DNA from: Olsenella sp. Marseille-P4559 | GTDB lineage: Bacteria; Actinomycetota; Coriobacteriia; Coriobacteriales; Atopobiaceae | DNA length: 64,000 nt | Assembly (NCBI RefSeq): GCF_900605015.1 | Contig: NZ_LR027574.1 | Span: forward strand, 228,076 to 292,075 | Direction of reading: 5' to 3' | Shown here: in pieces, positions 46,288 to 59,532 of the stretch | Position numbering within the stretch: position 1 is the first letter of the stretch | How the letters are laid out: the number at the start of each line of letters is the position of its first letter | The notes under the pieces: generated by a model | Seen by the model: only the letters and a program-made list of their open reading frames with translations | Told to the model about the DNA's origin: nothing | Databases searched by the model: none | Position numbers and translations under genes: made by a program

Positions 46288-46617
46288 AACGCAGGATTTC
46301 TGACAAGGGCGTCTTGCGACCGGACGGCATGCCGTGATTTCTCGCCGGTTAGACCTCTCTAAGCGTTCGTCTTTTCCAAGACCGTTACCCATTCTGCGGA
46401 TCATGCCCGCCCATGAATCCGGCGCGCGCCTGAATGTGCCAAATGATGTCATGTCGATCATGAGCCCGGCATGCAGGCCCCATGCCGTCCCCGCCCGGGC
46501 CCCCGCAGCGGCAACCATCGGCAAACCTCTATAATGGCCTTCGGAAAAGAAAACAACCACAGTCAGGCGTCTCCCTCGCCTGGACGGCATGTCTGCCGCA
46601 AAACGGAAGGTTTGCAC

Positions 46618-48153
46618 ATGACCCAGAAGCAAGACCACGAGGCTCCTAAAACGGGCCTCGGCCGGTGGAACGCTACCGAGTCGAAGCCGCGTGGCTCAAA
46701 GGATGCCCGCGCTGCTCGTCCCGGTCGCACCAAGCGACGTCGCATGAATCCCACCGTGCGTCACTACGTGTCAACGCTCGTGGTGACGGTCGCCGTCTGC
46801 GTGGCGTGCATCTTCTGCTTCACGCCGCTCAGCGAGCGCATCACCACCGGCCTTGACATCCAGGGCGGCGTCTCGGTAATCCTCACCGCGTCGAAGCAGG
46901 ACGGCTCCACGCCCACCGTAGACGAGATGAACACCGCCAAGACTATCGTCGAGAAGCGCGTGAACACGCTTGGTGCCTCCGAGGCAACGGTGCAGATCCA
47001 GGGGAGCAACTCGATTCTGGTCCAGATTCCCGGTGCCACGGACGCCGACTCCGCAGTCCAGACCATCGGACAGACCGGACACCTCGAGTTTGTCCGCCTC
47101 GATGACATCGGCGACGCCGATGCGCTCGCAAAGATCGAGGCCGGTGCCTCCAACGCGACGCTGGAGCAGGGTACCTACACTGCCTTTCTCGACGGCTCCT
47201 ACATCGAGTCCACCTCCGTCGCGCAGTCCTCGACCTCCGTTGGCACCTACGCCGTGAACATCACGTTCAATTCCGAGGGCGCCGACATCTTCGGCCAGGT
47301 CACCAAGGAGCTTGCCCCCACCAATGGCCAGATCTGCATCGTCCTCGACGGTGTCGTGCAGTCTGCGCCTGCCGTCCAGGAGGAGATTTCGGGCGGCAAG
47401 GTTTCCATCACAGGCAACTTTACCAGTGCCGAGGCCCAGGAGCTCAAGACCGTGCTCGACTCTGGCTCGCTGCCTGTTACCCTTAACTACTCCGAGAGCC
47501 GTGTGGTCGGTCCCACGCTTGGTCAGGACTCGCTCAACCAGGGCATTCTCGCCCTGGTCATTGGTGTGGCCTTTGTTATCGTCTACCTGTTTGTCTTCTA
47601 TCGTGGCCTGGGCTTGCTCACGCTTGGGTCCCTTGCGGTATTCGCAGTCCTTTACCTGGGACTTCTCGCCATTCTTTCTCACTACGGCATGTTCTCGCTG
47701 TCGCTTCCTGGCCTTGCGGGCATGGTCCTCACCACGGGTTCGGCCGCAGACTCCTCGATTCTGGTGCTCGAGCGCTTCCGCGAGGAGGTCCGCATGGGCC
47801 GCACCGTCAAGAACGCCTCGGTCTCGGGCGCGCGCCACGGCATCATGACCTCGCTCGACGCTGACATCGTGACGCTCGTCACCGCACTTGCCCTCTTCTT
47901 TGTGGGGGCCGGTACCGTCAAGGGCTTTGGTCTCACGCTGGCGCTCGGCGTTGCCTGCGACATCGTGACCATGTTCGGCTTTAAGGCGCCCGCGCTGAGG
48001 CTCCTTGCCACCCATGCGATTCCCTCTCACCCAGGCTTCTGGGGCGTTGACCAGGACATCGCCGAGGCAGAGCGCAAGTCCCAGGAGGCCCAGAAGGCGA
48101 GAGGTGCCAAGGCGCCCTCCTCGTCCGCGAAGGGGGGTGAGGCTCGTGCGTAG
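46618..48153 (+). CDS. secD: Protein translocase subunit SecD
   Basis: 511 aa from the ATG at 46618 with GGAAGG seven bases upstream. Residues about 55-75 are the first membrane helix; GLDIQGGVSV follows it as in all SecD proteins. The large extracytoplasmic P1 domain comes next, then five membrane helices in the last third, with GPTLGQDSLNQG at the start and MVLTTGSAADSSILVLERFREE inside. SecD with SecF uses the proton gradient to help export through SecYEG. The first ~45 residues form a basic cytoplasmic extension. Confidence 0.94.
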   Translation: MTQKQDHEAPKTGLGRWNATESKPRGSKDARAARPGRTKRRRMNPTVRHYVSTLVVTVAVCVACIFCFTPLSERITTGLDIQGGVSVILTASKQDGSTPTVDEMNTAKTIVEKRVNTLGASEATVQIQGSNSILVQIPGATDADSAVQTIGQTGHLEFVRLDDIGDADALAKIEAGASNATLEQGTYTAFLDGSYIESTSVAQSSTSVGTYAVNITFNSEGADIFGQVTKELAPTNGQICIVLDGVVQSAPAVQEEISGGKVSITGNFTSAEAQELKTVLDSGSLPVTLNYSESRVVGPTLGQDSLNQGILALVIGVAFVIVYLFVFYRGLGLLTLGSLAVFAVLYLGLLAILSHYGMFSLSLPGLAGMVLTTGSAADSSILVLERFREEVRMGRTVKNASVSGARHGIMTSLDADIVTLVTALALFFVGAGTVKGFGLTLALGVACDIVTMFGFKAPALRLLATHAIPSHPGFWGVDQDIAEAERKSQEAQKARGAKAPSSSAKGGEARA

Positions 48154-49135
48154 CCACTTCTCCCACGAGATTTCGTTCATCGGTCACCGCAGGCAGTTCC
48201 TCACGCTCTCGTGCGTCCTTGTGATCCTCTCGGTTGTGGGCCTTGTCGCGCGCGGCTTGGTCTTTGGCATCGAGTTCACAGGCGGCACCGAGATAGACTT
48301 CTACGAGACGAACACCATCACCATCGAGCAGATGCGTGGCGCCCTCGAGTCAGCAGGGGAGGGCGCGGCCACCGTCCAGACAACCGCCACGCAGGGCGAG
48401 GCGGGCTTCCTCGTGCGTTCCGACACCACCGACCCCACCACCGCCAATGCGCACGCGCAGGCGGCGGCCGAGTCGCTCGGCCTCACGACCGATAACTACA
48501 CCGTGACAACTATCGGCCCCGACTGGGGCGCCGACACCACGCGCTCCTCGCTCATGGCCTTTGGCGTGGCAATCCTTCTCATCATCGCCTACGTCTCGTT
48601 CCGCTACGAGTTCAAGATGTCCATCACGGCCGTCATCGCGCTCCTGCATGACCTCATCATCACGCTGGGCGTCTACGCATGGTTCCAGATTGACATCTCG
48701 CCCAACGTGATTGCGGCCCTGCTCACCATCATGGGCTACTCGCTCTACGACACCGTGGTCGAGTTCAACCGCATGAACGAGAACGCCAAGCAGCTCCGTG
48801 ATGGCGTGCATCACACCTACTATGAGATTTGCAACTACTCGATCAACGAGGTCATCATCCGTACGATCAACACCACGGTCGTGACGCTCGTGCCGGTCAT
48901 CTGCATGCTGGCCATCGGTGGGGCGACGCTCAAGGACTTCGCCTTCGCCATCCTGGTCGGCGAGATTCTGGGCACCTATTCCAGCTTCGCCGTGGCGTCG
49001 CCGCTCCTGGCCATCTGGAAGACGCGCGAGCCCAAGTGGGCCAAGCTCGAGGCCAAGTACGGCAACGTCGAGGCGGCCTCGGCTGCGCCTGCCACGGGTA
49101 ATCATGCCGAGAAGAACGAGCCCAGGGAGAGCTAG
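48146..49135 (+). CDS. secF: Protein translocase subunit SecF
   Basis: 329 aa, GTG start eight bases inside the secD end, with AGGGGGGTGAGG upstream. GIEFTGGTEIDF (about residue 37) and GYSLYDTVVEFNRMNEN (about residue 200) are family landmarks; the usual SINDTVV is SLYDTVV here. Six membrane segments. Partner of SecD. Confidence 0.94.
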   Translation: MRSHFSHEISFIGHRRQFLTLSCVLVILSVVGLVARGLVFGIEFTGGTEIDFYETNTITIEQMRGALESAGEGAATVQTTATQGEAGFLVRSDTTDPTTANAHAQAAAESLGLTTDNYTVTTIGPDWGADTTRSSLMAFGVAILLIIAYVSFRYEFKMSITAVIALLHDLIITLGVYAWFQIDISPNVIAALLTIMGYSLYDTVVEFNRMNENAKQLRDGVHHTYYEICNYSINEVIIRTINTTVVTLVPVICMLAIGGATLKDFAFAILVGEILGTYSSFAVASPLLAIWKTREPKWAKLEAKYGNVEAASAAPATGNHAEKNEPRES

Positions 49136-49136
49136 G

Positions 49137-52100
49137 GTGCCCGGGCTTCTCGATAGCCGCCGTTGGGACGTCCTTGACGCGGACCCCCGCGCCGAGGCGT
49201 CCCTTGCCGATGCGCTGGGCGTTTCCCGCCTGGTGGCCCGGGTCCTCGTGGCCCGCGGCATCACCGGCGTCGAGGAGGCCCGCGCCTTCCTCACCCCCTC
49301 GCTGGATCGCGACTGGGCAGACCCGCTGCTCATTCCTGGCATGCCGGAGGCCGCAGATCGTGTTGAGCGTGCCGTGCGGACAGGGGAGGGCATCGCCGTC
49401 TTTGGCGACTTCGACGTCGACGGCATGAGCTCCACCTGCATCCTTGCACTTGGCCTGCGTAAGCTGGGCGGGCATGCCCGTGCCTACATCCCGCACCGCT
49501 TTGGCGAGGGCTACGGCCTTACGAGGGCCGCGCTCAACCGTGTGCTGGCAGACGGCAAGCCTGACCTCATCGTGACCGTCGACAACGGCATTGCTGCCCA
49601 GCACGAGGTTGATTGGCTGCTCGAGCAGGGGGTGGACGTCGTGGTGACCGACCACCACGAGCCCGCGGATCTGGTACCCCAGGGCGTTCCCGTGACGGAT
49701 CCAAAGCTCGCGGCCGACGGCCCCTCTCGCGACCTTGCTGGCGCAGGCGTGTCGCTCAAGCTCCTGGCTGTGTTGGGCGAGCGTCTTGGCAAGCCCAACG
49801 TCTGGCGCTCCTACACCGACGTTGCCGCCCTGGGCACCCTCTCGGACATGATGCAGCTCTCGCGCGAGAACCGCGCCCTGGTCGCCGATGGCGTAGGGCG
49901 GCTGAGAAGAACCTCTCGTCCCGGCCTTGTGGCCCTTGCGGCCTGTGCCGGTCAGGACATATCCGAGGCCACCGCGGACTCGCTGCCCTTCTCGATCATC
50001 CCGCGCCTCAACGCCGCCGGTCGCATGGGCACCACTGACATCGCCATCGACCTGCTCATGACCAACGATCCCGCCCAGGCGCCAGTCCTTGCGGGGCAGC
50101 TCGAGGACATCAATAGGCAGCGCCGCGATATCGAGTCGGCCCTCACCGAGGAGGCGCTCGCGAAGGTCGCGGCCACATGGCGCGGCGGGCGCGTCATCGT
50201 TGTCGACGGCGAGGGCTGGCACGAGGGCGTCAAGGGCATCGTGGCAAGCCGCATCGTGAATCGCTACCACGTGCCTGCCATTCTCTTCACCATCCAGGAT
50301 GGGATTGCACGCGGGTCTGGCCGCTCGGTTGGCTCGGTCGATCTGTTCCGCGCCGTCGAGCAGTGCTCCGACATGCTCGTCCGCTTTGGCGGGCATGCGG
50401 GTGCTGTGGGAGTGACCTGCGAGGCGTCGCGCCTCGACGAGTTCCGCGGTCGTCTGGAGGCTGTGCTCGACGCACTGCCTGCCGAGCAGTTTGAATCGCG
50501 CGGCGAGGTCGCCGCGGTTGTGCGCCTCTCCGAACTCACCATCTCCTCCATTGCGTCGCTCGAGACGCTGCAGCCCTTTGGACAGGGCAACAAAAGGCCC
50601 CTCCTCGCCGTGCGTGGCGTCACCATGAGAAATCGCTCTCGTGTTGGTGCCGATGGTGCCCACCTGCGCTTTATTGCCACAGACGGCACCTCCTCGGTGC
50701 CCGCCATCATGTTTCGCGTGCCAGACTGCTCGCACGCCTGCGCTACGGACAGCGTGGTCGACCTGGTCTTTGAGGCCGTGGACGAGACCTGGCAGGGGCG
50801 TACGAAGCCAAAGCTCATGGTCAAGGACATCCTCTACCGCGACGGCGAGGATGAGGCGCCCGCCGGTCCGGGCTTCGTGGACGGCCTCTTCGCGCGCGAG
50901 GAGGGCGAGAAGGACGCGGTCGCGGGCCCCGCGGCACTCAGCGCGCCCGGAGAGCCCGCTGTGCCAGCACCCGAGGTTTTGCCCCAGGACTACGACGCCC
51001 TTACGAACAGCCTGGTACGTGCCCTCATCGGAGAGAAGGCGCTGCTGCCTGCGCAGCGCGAGGCGCTCTCGCGCCTTGCCAACGGCCGCTCGACGCTCTG
51101 TGTGATGGCAACGGGTCGCGGCAAATCGCTCGTCTTCCACGTCCATGCGGCTCGCACCGCCCTTTCGCGGCATCGTGCGAGTATCTTCGTGTATCCGCTG
51201 CGCGCCCTTGTCGCAGACCAGGCGCACCACCTCTCCGACGAGCTTGCGCCTCTTGGTGTGGGCGTGGCTGTGCTCACGGGCGAGACGTCCGTCGAGGAGC
51301 GCGCCCGCGTCTATGCGGGCCTGGCCTCCGGCCTGGTTGACATCGTTCTCACCACACCTGAGTACCTGGCCCTCCACGCCGATGACCTTGCGCGCTCCGG
51401 CCGCGTGGGCTTTCTCGTGGTCGATGAGGCGCACCACAGCTCGCCCTCTGGCTCTGGCTCGCGCGACGCCTACCGCGACCTGCCTCGCGTTCGCGCTCTT
51501 CTCGGCGAGCCCGTCGTTTTGGCCGTCACGGCCACGGCCTCGGCTGAGGTGGCTCGCGACATCTGCGACCTCTGCGGCATTGCCGCCCAGGACGCGATTG
51601 TAGACCCTGCTGTACGTGACAACCTCAGCCTCGACGACTGCCGCGACCTGCGCGACCGCGACGCGGCGCTTGCCTCGATTGTGGCCGAGGGCGAGAAATG
51701 CATCGCCTACGTGAACTCCCGCGCCCGCTCGGTGACGCTCGCGCGCCTGCTTCGCCACCAGGTGCCAGAGCTTGCGCCCCGGGTCGCCTTCTACAACGCG
51801 GGGCTCCCGCGTGCCGACCGCATGCGCGTCGAGCGGGCGTTCCGTATGGGCGAGCTTTCGTGCATCGTCTCCACCAGCGCCTTTGGTGAGGGAGTGAACA
51901 TCCCCGACGTGCGCAGCGTCGTGCTCTACGACATGCCGCTGGGACGCGTCGAGTTCAACCAGATGAGCGGGCGGGCCGGTCGCGACGGAGGCGATGCCCG
52001 CGTGCACCTGCTCTTCGGCCGGCGCGACCTTGCCTCCACGCAGCGCATCCTGAGCCAGGTGGCACCCACGCGAGACGAGCTCGTCGCGCTCTACTGCGCA

Positions 52101-52472
52101 CTGCGGGGCGTCTCCCGGAGCGCCGCTCAGGTGGGGAAGGCGTCATTCTCGGCGTGTGACTCCCAACTCGCGGCCATGGCCACGGTGAGGGGCCGTCCGC
52201 TTTCGGAAGCTACGGTCACCTGCGGTATACAGGTCTTCGAAGAGCTGGGACTTCTTTCGCTTGTGGGCTTTGGAGACGCACGTCTCATTACCATGACGGA
52301 GAGTCCCGCGCGCGTCAATCTTGAGGCCTCTGCCCGCTACCTCGAGGGCATTCGCGAGCGTCAGGCGTGCGGCGAGTTTGGCGAATGGGTACTCTCATGT
52401 ACTGAGGAAGAGTTGCTCTCTGCGATTAACAGGCCCATTGCGCCAAACTTTGGCGTGTGTGTGGGCGAGTAG
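49137..52472 (+). CDS. recJ: RecJ exonuclease fused to a RecQ-like DNA helicase
   Basis: 1,111 aa, about twice the usual RecJ. GTG at 49137, one base after the secF stop. Residues ~1-560 are RecJ: GDFDVDGMSS (about 89), TVDNGI, the DHH motif TDHHEP (about 171), RLNAAGRMG, EGVKGIVASRI and GGHAGAVG, plus an OB-like end. Residues ~610-1000 are a superfamily 2 helicase: ATGRGKS (about 658), DEAHH (about 763), AVTATAS, ECIAYVN-type motif IV (as KCIAYVNSRARS), AFGEGVNIPDV and QMSGRAGRDGG (about 941). RecJ degrades 5' ssDNA ends and is normally paired with a separate RecQ; here both may act from one chain. Confidence 0.9.
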   Translation: MPGLLDSRRWDVLDADPRAEASLADALGVSRLVARVLVARGITGVEEARAFLTPSLDRDWADPLLIPGMPEAADRVERAVRTGEGIAVFGDFDVDGMSSTCILALGLRKLGGHARAYIPHRFGEGYGLTRAALNRVLADGKPDLIVTVDNGIAAQHEVDWLLEQGVDVVVTDHHEPADLVPQGVPVTDPKLAADGPSRDLAGAGVSLKLLAVLGERLGKPNVWRSYTDVAALGTLSDMMQLSRENRALVADGVGRLRRTSRPGLVALAACAGQDISEATADSLPFSIIPRLNAAGRMGTTDIAIDLLMTNDPAQAPVLAGQLEDINRQRRDIESALTEEALAKVAATWRGGRVIVVDGEGWHEGVKGIVASRIVNRYHVPAILFTIQDGIARGSGRSVGSVDLFRAVEQCSDMLVRFGGHAGAVGVTCEASRLDEFRGRLEAVLDALPAEQFESRGEVAAVVRLSELTISSIASLETLQPFGQGNKRPLLAVRGVTMRNRSRVGADGAHLRFIATDGTSSVPAIMFRVPDCSHACATDSVVDLVFEAVDETWQGRTKPKLMVKDILYRDGEDEAPAGPGFVDGLFAREEGEKDAVAGPAALSAPGEPAVPAPEVLPQDYDALTNSLVRALIGEKALLPAQREALSRLANGRSTLCVMATGRGKSLVFHVHAARTALSRHRASIFVYPLRALVADQAHHLSDELAPLGVGVAVLTGETSVEERARVYAGLASGLVDIVLTTPEYLALHADDLARSGRVGFLVVDEAHHSSPSGSGSRDAYRDLPRVRALLGEPVVLAVTATASAEVARDICDLCGIAAQDAIVDPAVRDNLSLDDCRDLRDRDAALASIVAEGEKCIAYVNSRARSVTLARLLRHQVPELAPRVAFYNAGLPRADRMRVERAFRMGELSCIVSTSAFGEGVNIPDVRSVVLYDMPLGRVEFNQMSGRAGRDGGDARVHLLFGRRDLASTQRILSQVAPTRDELVALYCALRGVSRSAAQVGKASFSACDSQLAAMATVRGRPLSEATVTCGIQVFEELGLLSLVGFGDARLITMTESPARVNLEASARYLEGIRERQACGEFGEWVLSCTEEELLSAINRPIAPNFGVCVGE

Positions 52473-52483
52473 GAGGAGGGGCC

Positions 52484-54955
52484 ATGGGCGATGACGGCAT
52501 GATGGCCGAGAAGGCCCAGGATACATTGGCTGCGGCGTCTGTGGGGGGAGCTGCCGTACCGGCTCCCGTCGATGGGGCGACTGCGGCCCCGGCCGCCCCG
52601 CTCGCACCGGCGACCGCGGCCGCGACCCCCATGCCCGCCAAGAAGCCGACCGTTCCCGATGCGGCAAACTTCCGCGTCCTCGAGGAGGCTGCGCGCTCCT
52701 ACCTCAACGACAAGGAGTGGGCAAAGATTGACCGCGCCTACCACTTTGCGGCCAACTACCACCGCAATCAGCGCCGGCGTTCGGGTGAGCCCTACATCAA
52801 CCACCCTGTCGAGGTGGCTCTCATCCTCTGCAAGGACCTCCACATGGACGAGGACACCATCTGCGCCGCGCTTCTGCACGACACGGTGGAGGACACGCCC
52901 GCCACGCTCTCGCAGATCTCGTCGCTCTTTGGCGAGACGACGGCCGAGCTGGTGGATGGCGTCACCAAGCTCACGTCCATCAAGGTCACCTCGATGGACG
53001 AGAAGCAGGCCCTCAACCTGCGCAAGATGTTTCTCGCCATGTCCAAGGACATCCGCGTGGTCATTATCAAGCTGGCCGACCGCCTGCACAACATGCGCAC
53101 CCTGGCGGCACTGCCTCCTGATCGCCGCCTCTTCAAGGCGCGCGAGACCATGGACGTGTACGCGCCTCTCGCCGATCGCCTTGGCATCTCCTCCATCAAG
53201 TGGGAGCTTGAGGACTTGGCCTTCTTCTGGCTCGAGCCCGAGGAGTACCAGCGCGTGGCCCGTATGGTCCAGGACTCGCGCGCACAGCGCGAGGACGACA
53301 CCGAGGCAGCCATCAAGACCCTGGATGACGAGCTCAAGCGCGTGGGCCTCAAGAACTACCAGATTACCGGCCGCCCCAAGCACCTCTGGTCCATCTACCA
53401 AAAGATGACCCGCAAGGGCCGGGACTTCTCGGACATCTACGACCTTATCGCCCTGCGTATCATCACGCAGACGGTGGGGGATTGCTACTCGGCGCTGGGG
53501 GCTGTCCACACGCTCTGGCACCCCATGCCCGGGCGCTTCAAGGACTACATCGCCACACCCAAGGCAAACCTCTACCAGTCGCTCCATACCACCGTAGTGG
53601 GGCCGGACGGCAAACCCATAGAGATCCAGATTCGCACGGTCGAGATGCACGAGGCCTCTGAGTACGGCGTTGCCGCCCACTGGCTCTACAAGAAGGCGGG
53701 CAACTCCCGGGGCAAGATGTCGGCCGAGGACCGCTCAATCGACTCCACAATCAACTGGATTCGCAAGAGCCTCGATTGGGCCGTCGAGGATGACATCGAC
53801 GACCCCCACGAATTCCTGAACAGCCTCCGCGTGGACCTCTTCGAGCACGAGATCTTTGTCTTCACGCCAAAGGGCGAGGTCATGAGCCTGCGCCGTGACT
53901 CGACGCCGCTTGACTTTGCCTACGCCGTCCACACCGAGGTGGGCAACCACTGCGTGGGCGCCAAAGTCAACGGGTCGGTGGTCCCACTCACCTACAAGCT
54001 CAACATGGGTGACCGCGTGGAAGTCCTCACCAATAAGAACGCCAAGCCCAGCCGCGACTGGATGAACATCGTGGTCACGCCCTCGGCGCGCGCCAAGATT
54101 CGCAAGTACTTCTCGGTGGAGACGCGCGCGGACGACGCCGAGCAGGGCAGGAGCGACCTTGCCCACGAGCTGCGCCGCCGTGGCTATGGCATCTCGACGC
54201 AGCGTACCGTAAAGGCAATCGAGCGCGTGTACCCGCAGTTTGACTATCGCTCCGCTGACGACCTGTTTGCCGGCATCGGTACGGGCAAGGTCTCGTCCAA
54301 GCAGGTTGCCAACCGTATCGAGGAGGTCCTTGAGGAGGGCTCGCCCGAGCAGCTCGAGGCTGCGCGCAAGGAGGCGGAGCGCCAGGCCAGGGTCGAGCAG
54401 GCCATCAAGGAAAACAAGCCCCTCATGCAGTCCTACGCCATCACGCAGACTGCGAGGGGAGCGAGGCGTCGTAGCAACTGCGGCGTGGTCGTGAAGGGCG
54501 ATGCGGACCTTCTCGTGCATCTCGCGCACTGCTGCAACCCCGTGGCCGGTGACGATATCGTGGGTTTCATCACGCGCGGCCGCGGCGTTTCGGTGCATCG
54601 CGCCAACTGCCCCAACGTGCACGACCTCATGAACCACCCCGAGCGCATGATCCCTGTCGAGTGGGACACTTCGGGTGCCACGGAGTTCCGAGTCGAGATT
54701 GTGGTCGAGGCTACGGACCGCATGGGGCTTCTCAAGGACGTCACCATCGCGATTGGCGACGCGGGCGGGAACATCCTCTCCGCTGCGACGCAGACGGGCA
54801 AGCGGGGCATCGCGCGCCTGCGCTTTATCGTGGCCATCTCGGACGCAAGCCTTCTGGACGCACTGCTCGCCAGCGTTTCTCGCGTGCCTTCCGTTTACGA
54901 TGCACGGCGCATCATGCCCGGTGAGGGTGCCAGCCAGATGAAGAGAAGGGTGTAG
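52484..54955 (+). CDS. rel: Bifunctional (p)ppGpp synthetase/hydrolase (Rel/SpoT)
   Basis: 823 aa from the ATG at 52484 with AGGAGGAGG upstream. After an Ala/Pro-rich N-terminal extension of ~55 residues come the HD hydrolase (INHPVEVAL at about 104, LLHDTVEDT at about 130), the synthetase (RFKDYIATPKANLYQSLHT, about 349), the TGS domain (EIFVFTPKGEVMSL, about 456), the zinc-finger/helical part with HCCNPVAGDDI and HRANCPN, and a C-terminal ACT domain. Both active sites look intact, so it makes and degrades the stringent-response alarmone. Confidence 0.95.
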   Translation: MGDDGMMAEKAQDTLAAASVGGAAVPAPVDGATAAPAAPLAPATAAATPMPAKKPTVPDAANFRVLEEAARSYLNDKEWAKIDRAYHFAANYHRNQRRRSGEPYINHPVEVALILCKDLHMDEDTICAALLHDTVEDTPATLSQISSLFGETTAELVDGVTKLTSIKVTSMDEKQALNLRKMFLAMSKDIRVVIIKLADRLHNMRTLAALPPDRRLFKARETMDVYAPLADRLGISSIKWELEDLAFFWLEPEEYQRVARMVQDSRAQREDDTEAAIKTLDDELKRVGLKNYQITGRPKHLWSIYQKMTRKGRDFSDIYDLIALRIITQTVGDCYSALGAVHTLWHPMPGRFKDYIATPKANLYQSLHTTVVGPDGKPIEIQIRTVEMHEASEYGVAAHWLYKKAGNSRGKMSAEDRSIDSTINWIRKSLDWAVEDDIDDPHEFLNSLRVDLFEHEIFVFTPKGEVMSLRRDSTPLDFAYAVHTEVGNHCVGAKVNGSVVPLTYKLNMGDRVEVLTNKNAKPSRDWMNIVVTPSARAKIRKYFSVETRADDAEQGRSDLAHELRRRGYGISTQRTVKAIERVYPQFDYRSADDLFAGIGTGKVSSKQVANRIEEVLEEGSPEQLEAARKEAERQARVEQAIKENKPLMQSYAITQTARGARRRSNCGVVVKGDADLLVHLAHCCNPVAGDDIVGFITRGRGVSVHRANCPNVHDLMNHPERMIPVEWDTSGATEFRVEIVVEATDRMGLLKDVTIAIGDAGGNILSAATQTGKRGIARLRFIVAISDASLLDALLASVSRVPSVYDARRIMPGEGASQMKRRV

Positions 54956-55686: not shown

Positions 55687-55772
55687 GCCCGAGTGGCGGA
55701 ATGGCAGACGCGGAGGTCTCAAAAACCTCTGAGGGAAACCTCGTGTGGGTTCGACCCCCACCTCGGGCACCA
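55687..55772 (+). tRNA. tRNA-Leu (anticodon CAA)
   Basis: 86 nt with encoded CCA. Acceptor stem GCCCGAG pairs with CTCGGGC. The anticodon stem-loop reads GAGGT-CTCAAAA-ACCTC, placing CAA at 34-36 (decodes UUG). A long variable arm (TGAGGGAAACCTCGT) and TGGGTTCGACCCCCA T-arm fit the class II Leu type. Confidence 0.96.
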
Positions 55773-59456: not shown

Positions 59457-59532
59457 GGGGATGTAGCTCAGTTGGGAGAGCGCTGCCTTCGCAAGGCAGA
59501 GGCCGAGGGTTCGAATCCCTTCATCTCCACCA
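59457..59532 (+). tRNA. tRNA-Ala (anticodon CGC)
   Basis: 76 nt with encoded CCA. Acceptor GGGGATG / CATCTCC (one G-U), D-arm GCTCAGTTGGGAGAGC, anticodon stem-loop CTGCC-TTCGCAA-GGCAG with CGC at 34-36, T-arm GAGGGTTCGAATCCCTT. Confidence 0.96.

Follow-up and report, generated by a model that had tools for sequence, protein, structure and literature searches.

The textbook helicase-nuclease pair of the RecF pathway, RecQ and RecJ, consists of separate proteins. The locus examined in the present study raises the question of whether a motor and a nuclease of these two kinds can be carried by one polypeptide, and if so, where such a protein came from and what it might do. The window (the whole stretch of DNA analysed, 64,000 nucleotides of contig NZ_LR027574.1 from Olsenella sp. 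Marseille-P4559, positions 228,076 to 292,075 of the forward strand) carries at 49137-52472, on its forward strand, a single open frame of 1,111 codons plus stop, which encodes RecJ followed by a RecQ-like superfamily 2 (SF2) helicase. We propose, with a probability of roughly 0.7, that the product is a single-chain motor-nuclease made of RecJ, the RecQ-like SF2 helicase and a winged helix, and that this machine has decayed in relatives to the RecJ tail domain PF10141. The protein belongs to the known RecJ kind, and its fusion to a helicase is old and widespread. The parts of the gene are given below.

49137..52472, + strand: recJ-helicase fusion gene, 1,111 residues plus stop (open reading frame, Pfam, NCBIfam)
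49392..49838, + strand: RecJ DHH domain, residues 86-234 (Pfam DHH 67.9 bits)
49404..49424, + strand: RecJ motif GDFDVDG, residues 90-96 (G90, D91, D93, D95 and G96 invariant in 62 fusions)
49650..49658, + strand: RecJ DHH motif, residues 172-174 (invariant in 62 fusions)
50187..50468, + strand: RecJ DHHA1 domain, residues 351-444, with invariant GGH at 418-420 (Pfam 49.8 bits)
50514..50828, + strand: RecJ OB domain, residues 460-564 (Pfam RecJ_OB 77.8 bits)
50832..50993, + strand: linker, residues 566-619, the HIRAN site in relatives (ratio of nonsynonymous to synonymous substitution, dN/dS, 0.348; predicted local distance difference test, pLDDT, below 50 at 591-611)
51048..51551, + strand: helicase RecA1 / DEAD domain, residues 638-805 (Pfam 78.3 bits)
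51108..51128, + strand: Walker A ATGRGKS, residues 658-664 (sequence and alignment)
51423..51437, + strand: motif II DEAHH, residues 763-767 (RecQ aromatic-rich loop missing after the motif)
51669..51989, + strand: helicase RecA2 / Helicase_C domain, residues 845-951, with TSAFGEG and GRAGRD motifs (Pfam 76.3 bits)
52059..52448, + strand: conserved winged-helix-like C-terminal domain, residues 975-1104 (DSSP; dN/dS 0.124)

The initial annotation had reported complete sets of RecJ and SF2 helicase motifs in one uninterrupted frame, and this was borne out by Pfam, NCBIfam, an alignment of 62 fusions and an AlphaFold2 model. The Pfam domains DHH, DHHA1, RecJ_OB, DEAD and Helicase_C all exceed their cut-offs in the window protein. 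A frameshift, a pair of adjacent genes or an assembly artefact was ruled out, as many independent genomes show the same frame. In the RecJ half, the recJ equivalog TIGR00644 scores 457.2 bits, above its cut-off of 396.9, and the catalytic elements GDFDVDG, VDxG, DHH, D237, NxxGR and GGH are invariant across the 62 aligned fusions. This half is thus shared with known RecJ proteins (TIGR00644; S. aureus 8y30, D. radiodurans 5f54) over the entire core, and it is predicted to be a 5'-3' exonuclease of single-stranded DNA (ssDNA). The difference lies beyond the core, where known RecJ proteins end or have a tail of 170-200 residues and the window protein adds a helicase module of 490 residues.

In this module Walker A, DExH and motifs III, V and VI were all found. 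The residues invariant in the 62 fusions include T659, R661, G662, K663 and S664, D763, E764, H766 and H767, A799 and T800, and further T913, A915, F916, G917, E918 and G919, Q942, G945, R946, G948 and R949. In 28 pairs from eight genomes of the genus, dN/dS was lowest in RecJ (0.061), close to 0.12 in the helicase half (RecA1 0.127, RecA2 0.111, C-terminal domain 0.124) and highest in the linker (0.348); purifying selection thus acts on the helicase half. A helicase part lacking conservation, named earlier as a refuting finding, is not what these values and the invariant residues show. A strict text search for five helicase motif patterns was passed in full by 66/72 loci of the class Coriobacteriia, 72/80 loci from a pattern search of named genomes (568 hits, 537 of them encoding relatives, 80 of these kept), 16/20 Bacillota loci and 10/15 Bacillota regions, and most of the remaining loci miss a single pattern. 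Among those that fail, L128 and L129 are RecJ-only and L257 is dead; the misses of L254 and of L122/L140 may come from a variant letter.

The AlphaFold2 model, built with 62 sequences, has a mean pLDDT of 89.1 and a predicted template modelling score of 0.80, and disorder is confined to residues 591-611. When the model was used for structure search, residues 7-568 matched RecJ chains and residues 615-1104 matched RecQ-family chains, among them RecQL4 (Z 28.0, root-mean-square deviation (rmsd) 7.6, 451 aligned residues); D. radiodurans RecQ gave Z 27.3, rmsd 3.2 and 374 aligned residues. In the C-terminal domain of the model, DSSP assigns the order helix-helix-helix-strand-strand-helix.

How close the motor stands to RecQ was judged from profiles, a tree and one loop. 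Among the NCBIfam helicases the RecQ models score best on the window protein, with both TIGR00614 (recQ_fam, 176.6 bits vs a cut-off of 219.8) and TIGR01389 (181.4 vs 640.2) remaining below threshold. The helicase tree (29 chosen rows; L096 was left out by the motif filter) places 25 fusions and one stand-alone helicase in one clade against three RecQs (support 100/100), and the Actinomycetota fusions form a single subclade within it (98/99). After DEAH, the aromatic-rich loop SQWGxDFRP is missing, the window protein having DEAHHSSPSGSGSRDAY where RecQ of its own genome has DEAHCVSQWGQDFRPAY. Because it lies below the RecQ cut-offs, outside the RecQ rows of the tree and is without this loop, the helicase is, as far as its sequence tells, RecQ-like and not RecQ. 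It shares the RecA1-RecA2 core of the RecQ helicases (TIGR00614, TIGR01389; 4tmu/1oyw, RecQL4, RECQL5, WRN) but differs from them by the absence of the zinc module, HRDC and the aromatic-rich loop, by its separate clade and by its attachment to RecJ. The earlier remark that no HRDC domain is evident at the C-terminus agrees with Pfam, which finds neither HRDC nor RecQ_Zn_bind in the window protein.

Two other kinds of system were compared. RecBCD, AddAB and AdnAB, as well as RecQ and RecJ acting in trans, likewise join a motor and a nuclease to generate 3' single strands, but the window chain combines a DHH-kind 5' exonuclease with a RecQ-like motor in one polypeptide. DpdF, a helicase of Dpd phage defence, is the top PADLOC match of the helicase half (residues 620-979, 197.7 bits); it is a stand-alone defence gene, whereas the window gene occupies the housekeeping recJ locus. 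Since the helicase half matches the PADLOC DpdF models best, automatic defence scans could mislabel the gene as DpdF.

The fusion had been suggested as a possible lineage trait, with a survey of Coriobacteriia as the way to check it. Conservation throughout the class was found, as 244/246 genomes match the fusion at E<=1e-40 (100/101 in the family), but the trait is not confined to Coriobacteriia. Of the 34 less clear genomes of the class that were re-examined, 26 encode the two halves within a single frame (1,047-1,332 residues), four were apparently interrupted at contig ends (not every case checked), two were RecJ-only and two were without visible RecJ. The RecJ-only genomes, G106 (L065/L128) and G174 (L063/L129), encode RecJ of 568 and 566 residues with no helicase half; no further match, RecQ included, was found in them at E<=1e-15, and the fused L115 is the sister of their RecJ in the RecJ-core tree. 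The genus is close to Tractidigestivibacter (Atopobiaceae), with fusions 86% identical in T. montrealensis and T. scatoligenes. Outside the class, the fusion is present in Ca. Oleimmundimicrobium (L140), in Orenia metallireducens, Thermincola ferriacetica and other Bacillota (full frames of at least 1,122 residues in at least 25/348 Bacillota genomes), and in L157 (genome G504), a record titled Slackia whose genome groups with another family of the phylum, outside the class. The fusion of this last record, titled Slackia heliotrinireducens, is only 41-44% identical to that of the window; because of this low identity and the grouping of the genome outside the class, the species label looks wrong. 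Among the pattern-search loci with full flanks, the order secDF-recJ-relA is kept, with relA in 43/44 and secF in 32/44, and the same locus is shared with recJ of Bacillota.

The absence of a stand-alone recQ, which had been expected to accompany the fusion, is not the rule. A true RecQ is encoded in the genome of the window itself (L002, one match to RecQ_Zn_bind, PF16124), and 167/246 genomes of the class keep one. Substitution of RecQ by the fusion is ruled out for this genome by its own RecQ; it is conceivable in the 79/246 genomes without a RecQ_Zn_bind match, for example the one-contig genomes G042, G047, G072 and G024. The fusion was also rejected as the sole resection motor, as PDDEXK_1 (AddAB-type) occurs in 96/99 genomes of the class, with two matches in the window's own genome; we read the PDDEXK_1 pairs as AddAB from their size and adjacency. 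In G169 (C13:70555-73802), two equal-scoring RecQ_Zn_bind matches, one in a frame of 633 residues and the other in one of 316, are separated by 3 kb, which suggests a duplication or repeat of recQ.

Most relatives carry one more domain. Between the OB domain and the helicase they have about 110 extra residues, which correspond to HIRAN (PF08797, 34.9 bits in L099 and 58.1 in L121 vs a cut-off of 24.7; both relatives scanned), and HIRAN is also above cut-off in L253 and in the stand-alone helicase L316. Pfam gives no HIRAN match in the window protein. By length, the insert is missing in 8/70 pattern-search proteins of more than 1,080 residues (L177, L185, L199, L203, L206, L212, L213 and L216), which include both named members of the genus; the window's genus has lost HIRAN. 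Because forms with and without HIRAN are intermixed within Coriobacteriales in the RecJ-core tree (74 chosen rows), the pattern suggests that the domain was lost repeatedly. In the available text of a study of human HLTF, HIRAN binds ssDNA and fork-like DNA (PMC4666394). The translocases HLTF and Rad5 resemble these relatives in joining HIRAN to an SF2 motor, and differ in having a SWI/SNF motor and RING and no nuclease, while the window protein is without HIRAN. A stand-alone gene for HIRAN, helicase and winged helix, of the same clade as the fusion helicases, was also observed (L316:4578-6524 on an IMG/VR contig; L256 in G690). Its contig resembles a mobile element and carries dndC (PADLOC DndC 623 bits) 3.4 kb downstream of the gene, and the RecJ of the same genome (L257) has a dead helicase. 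Considered as a candidate donor of the fused helicase, this stand-alone helicase is 60% identical to that of Orenia and is placed in a polytomy among the Bacillota fusions of the helicase tree.

In the corresponding gene of other Bacillota and Actinomycetota, the helicase is dead or reduced to its second half. A search of Bacillota with the helicase half matched RecJ proteins of 822-874 residues over RecA2 and the C-terminal domain only (G829, G561 and G680; E down to 3.5e-31 in G561 and G680). The longer L251, L252 and L257 have lost Walker A and DEAH; L252 still has HIRAN and Helicase_C over cut-off with DEAD under it, and L257 has Helicase_C at 50.8 bits and DEAD at 25.8 vs a cut-off of 26. 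Further along the series, L250 has Helicase_C (29.6, cut-off 23.5) directly after RecJ_OB and no DEAD, and L248 has Helicase_C at 21.0. In L249, Helicase_C (14.3, residues 601-703) overlaps PF10141 (22.5, residues 650-838), and in the search of its genome PF10141 reaches 26.5 vs a cut-off of 26.4. Intact fusions stay under this cut-off (L099 14.6; L253 22.3 over its C-terminal domain, and 25.8 in its genome), and PF10141 had no match in the window's own genome. Where the fetched stretch permits, decayed and PF10141 loci also show the secDF-recJ-relA order.

Profile comparison connects the two ends of this series. With hhalign, the intact helicase profile matched L248-L250 (probability 100, score 325), five PF10141 members (99.1, 141), two Actinomycetota sets (98.8, 122; 98.0, 105) and three Bacillus-type tails forming the strict PF10141 set, L298-L300 (91.9, 55). 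Sixty column shuffles per set scored at most 24.3, and reversal and the RecJ core gave nothing. A profile of 13 tails with no intact helicase had S. aureus RecJ (8y30) as its top hit (E 2e-11), followed by RecA2 domains of RecQ and DEAD-box proteins (E from 3.7e-4). Residues 4-721 of the 8y30 chain aligned with 6-1062 of the full model (630 aligned residues, Z 51.3), extending into RecA2 and beyond; among six D. radiodurans and Thermus RecJ chains with Z above about 48, the alignments of five (four D. radiodurans entries and 2zxo) end at residue 568, and that of 2zxr reaches 852. For the D. radiodurans RecJ tail, the available text of its description reports that HHpred gave no homologue (PMC4663267). 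PF10141 (ssDNA-exonuc_C, the tail of Bacillus- and Staphylococcus-type RecJ) is thus homologous to RecA2 and the winged helix of the fusion and has the same order and position after the OB domain, but it has no RecA1 and no ATPase motifs. It is probably the remnant of a decayed helicase.

Several results weigh against the proposal of a motor-nuclease that decayed into PF10141. The strict PF10141 set stops at the probability of 91.9, and ten PF10141-type tails taken without L248-L250 found 8y30 and no helicase in the Protein Data Bank by HMMER; it is through the intermediates that PF10141 is connected to helicases. The alignment to 8y30 has an rmsd of 17.2, because the domains are set differently, and a C-terminal AlphaFold2 model, searched alone, gave helicase RecA2 chains as its best 50 rows, with no 8y30 or other RecJ among them. 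Furthermore, the loss of the aromatic-rich loop could change coupling or polarity, G106 and G174 live without the helicase half, and the deep branches of the RecJ-core tree are weak.

As to direction, a RecJ-core tree of 34 chosen rows, 19 of them decayed forms, was used. A single clade of the decayed forms was rejected (approximately unbiased test, p 5.8e-51), and the tree needs seven changes, three of them forced by starred branches, so that several separate decay events appear to be needed. Dead L252 is sister to intact L261, and L248 and L249 group with intact L255 and L259. Since L252 keeps HIRAN and traces of Helicase_C, such dead copies look more like products of decay than like precursors. 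The distances of RecJ core and helicase correlate in 32 intact fusions (r 0.80; 0/2000 shuffles), and weakly so when 15 decayed forms are added (r 0.36; 0/2000 shuffles). A single ancestral fusion followed by many losses fits best, and its ancestral layout would be RecJ, HIRAN, helicase and winged helix at the secDF-recJ-relA locus. We consider it slightly better than an even chance that the RecJ ancestor of Bacillota and Actinomycetota was a self-propelled nuclease whose motor died repeatedly, that the so far unexplained RecJ C-terminus of B. subtilis, S. aureus and many Actinomycetota represents a helicase fossil serving as a protein-docking tail, and that Coriobacteriia, Oleimmundimicrobium, Thermincola and Orenia keep the working machine. 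Because the deep RecJ-core branches are weak, the tree leaves an ancestor of both phyla and a transfer between them undecided.

Transfer is the core of the alternative that survives best, although we regard it as unlikely: the fused recJ or its helicase part would have moved across phyla and replaced tails repeatedly, the intact forms being re-acquisitions. The patchy occurrence in Bacillota and the stand-alone gene on a mobile-element-like contig fit this, but the parallel divergence of RecJ core and helicase, the single clade of Actinomycetota fusion helicases and the conserved locus do not; a transfer of the gene as a whole would still be conceivable. More improbable still is a helicase half that tethers DNA or serves as a scaffold, with no working motor in spite of its motifs. 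Such a role would agree with the replaced aromatic-rich loop, with the many relatives that keep RecJ despite motor death, and with the tail of D. radiodurans RecJ, which binds SSB-Ct according to the available text of PMC4846377; against it, the residues of Walker A, DExH and motifs V/VI show little or no variation across the 62 fusions and evolve under purifying selection within the genus, which is not the case in the decayed forms. Least probable is a lineage gain by one fusion in Coriobacteriia or a near ancestor, with the likeness to other RecJ tails due to common folds only, for which the wide occurrence of RecA-like and winged-helix folds and the failure of strict PF10141 alone to find helicases by HMMER may be counted, and which is already strained by the full-length dead intermediates and opposed by intact HIRAN-bearing fusions in Bacillota and Oleimmundimicrobium, by Helicase_C above cut-off in RecJ tails without RecA1 or Walker A (L250, L252 and L257), by collinear hhalign matches far above the shuffles and by the shared secDF-recJ-relA locus.

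The architecture, conservation, distribution, homology and decay series described above are results of computation, whereas the activities, polarity, coupling and cellular role of the single-chain motor-nuclease that we favour are inferred. As described in the available text of PMC4846377, E. coli RecJ degrades 5' tails unaided, RecQ (3'-5') is required for blunt or 3'-tailed ends, and SSB stimulates. In the fusion, the helicase would spend ATP to open the duplex beside a gap, fork or end, and the 5' strand so exposed would be digested by RecJ in the same chain, an in-cis version of the joint action of RecQ and RecJ in trans. Moving into the duplex along the 3' strand, the motor would run in the same direction as RecJ, which digests the 5' strand; the site may be chosen by HIRAN where present, or by the winged helix. 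As RecQ and AddAB-type enzymes coexist with the fusion in these genomes, its main task is more likely to be the widening of gaps and the processing of stalled forks than the resection of breaks.

In the literature searched (most subscription papers lay outside its scope), we found no description of a RecJ-helicase fusion or of the origin of PF10141, and, among the papers listed, none on RecJ-HIRAN by title. Since one chain holds both RecJ and helicase, the coupling of unwinding to 5' digestion can be tested by single mutations. The decay series suggests specifically where PF10141, a tail without stated function in the papers covered, came from, and predicts that RecJ of B. subtilis and S. aureus descends from a motor-nuclease. 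In addition, the HIRAN-bearing relatives would bring into a bacterial RecF-pathway enzyme a domain that in human HLTF binds forks and ssDNA.

The immediate surroundings of the gene in the window are as follows.

46471-48153: secD, upstream of secF (open reading frame)
48005..49135, + strand: secF, upstream neighbour (open reading frame; start not refined)
49124..49130, + strand: AGGGAGA, ribosome-binding-like, 6 bases 5' of the GTG start (read from the sequence)
52457..54955, + strand: relA/spoT-like gene, downstream neighbour (open reading frame; start not refined)

The start codon is the GTG at 49137, with the secF stop (49133-49135) just upstream, and the identical GTG start is used in seven relatives of the genus. 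Further downstream, the window also carries a tRNA-Leu (caa) gene at 55687-55772 and a tRNA-Ala (cgc) gene at 59457-59532.

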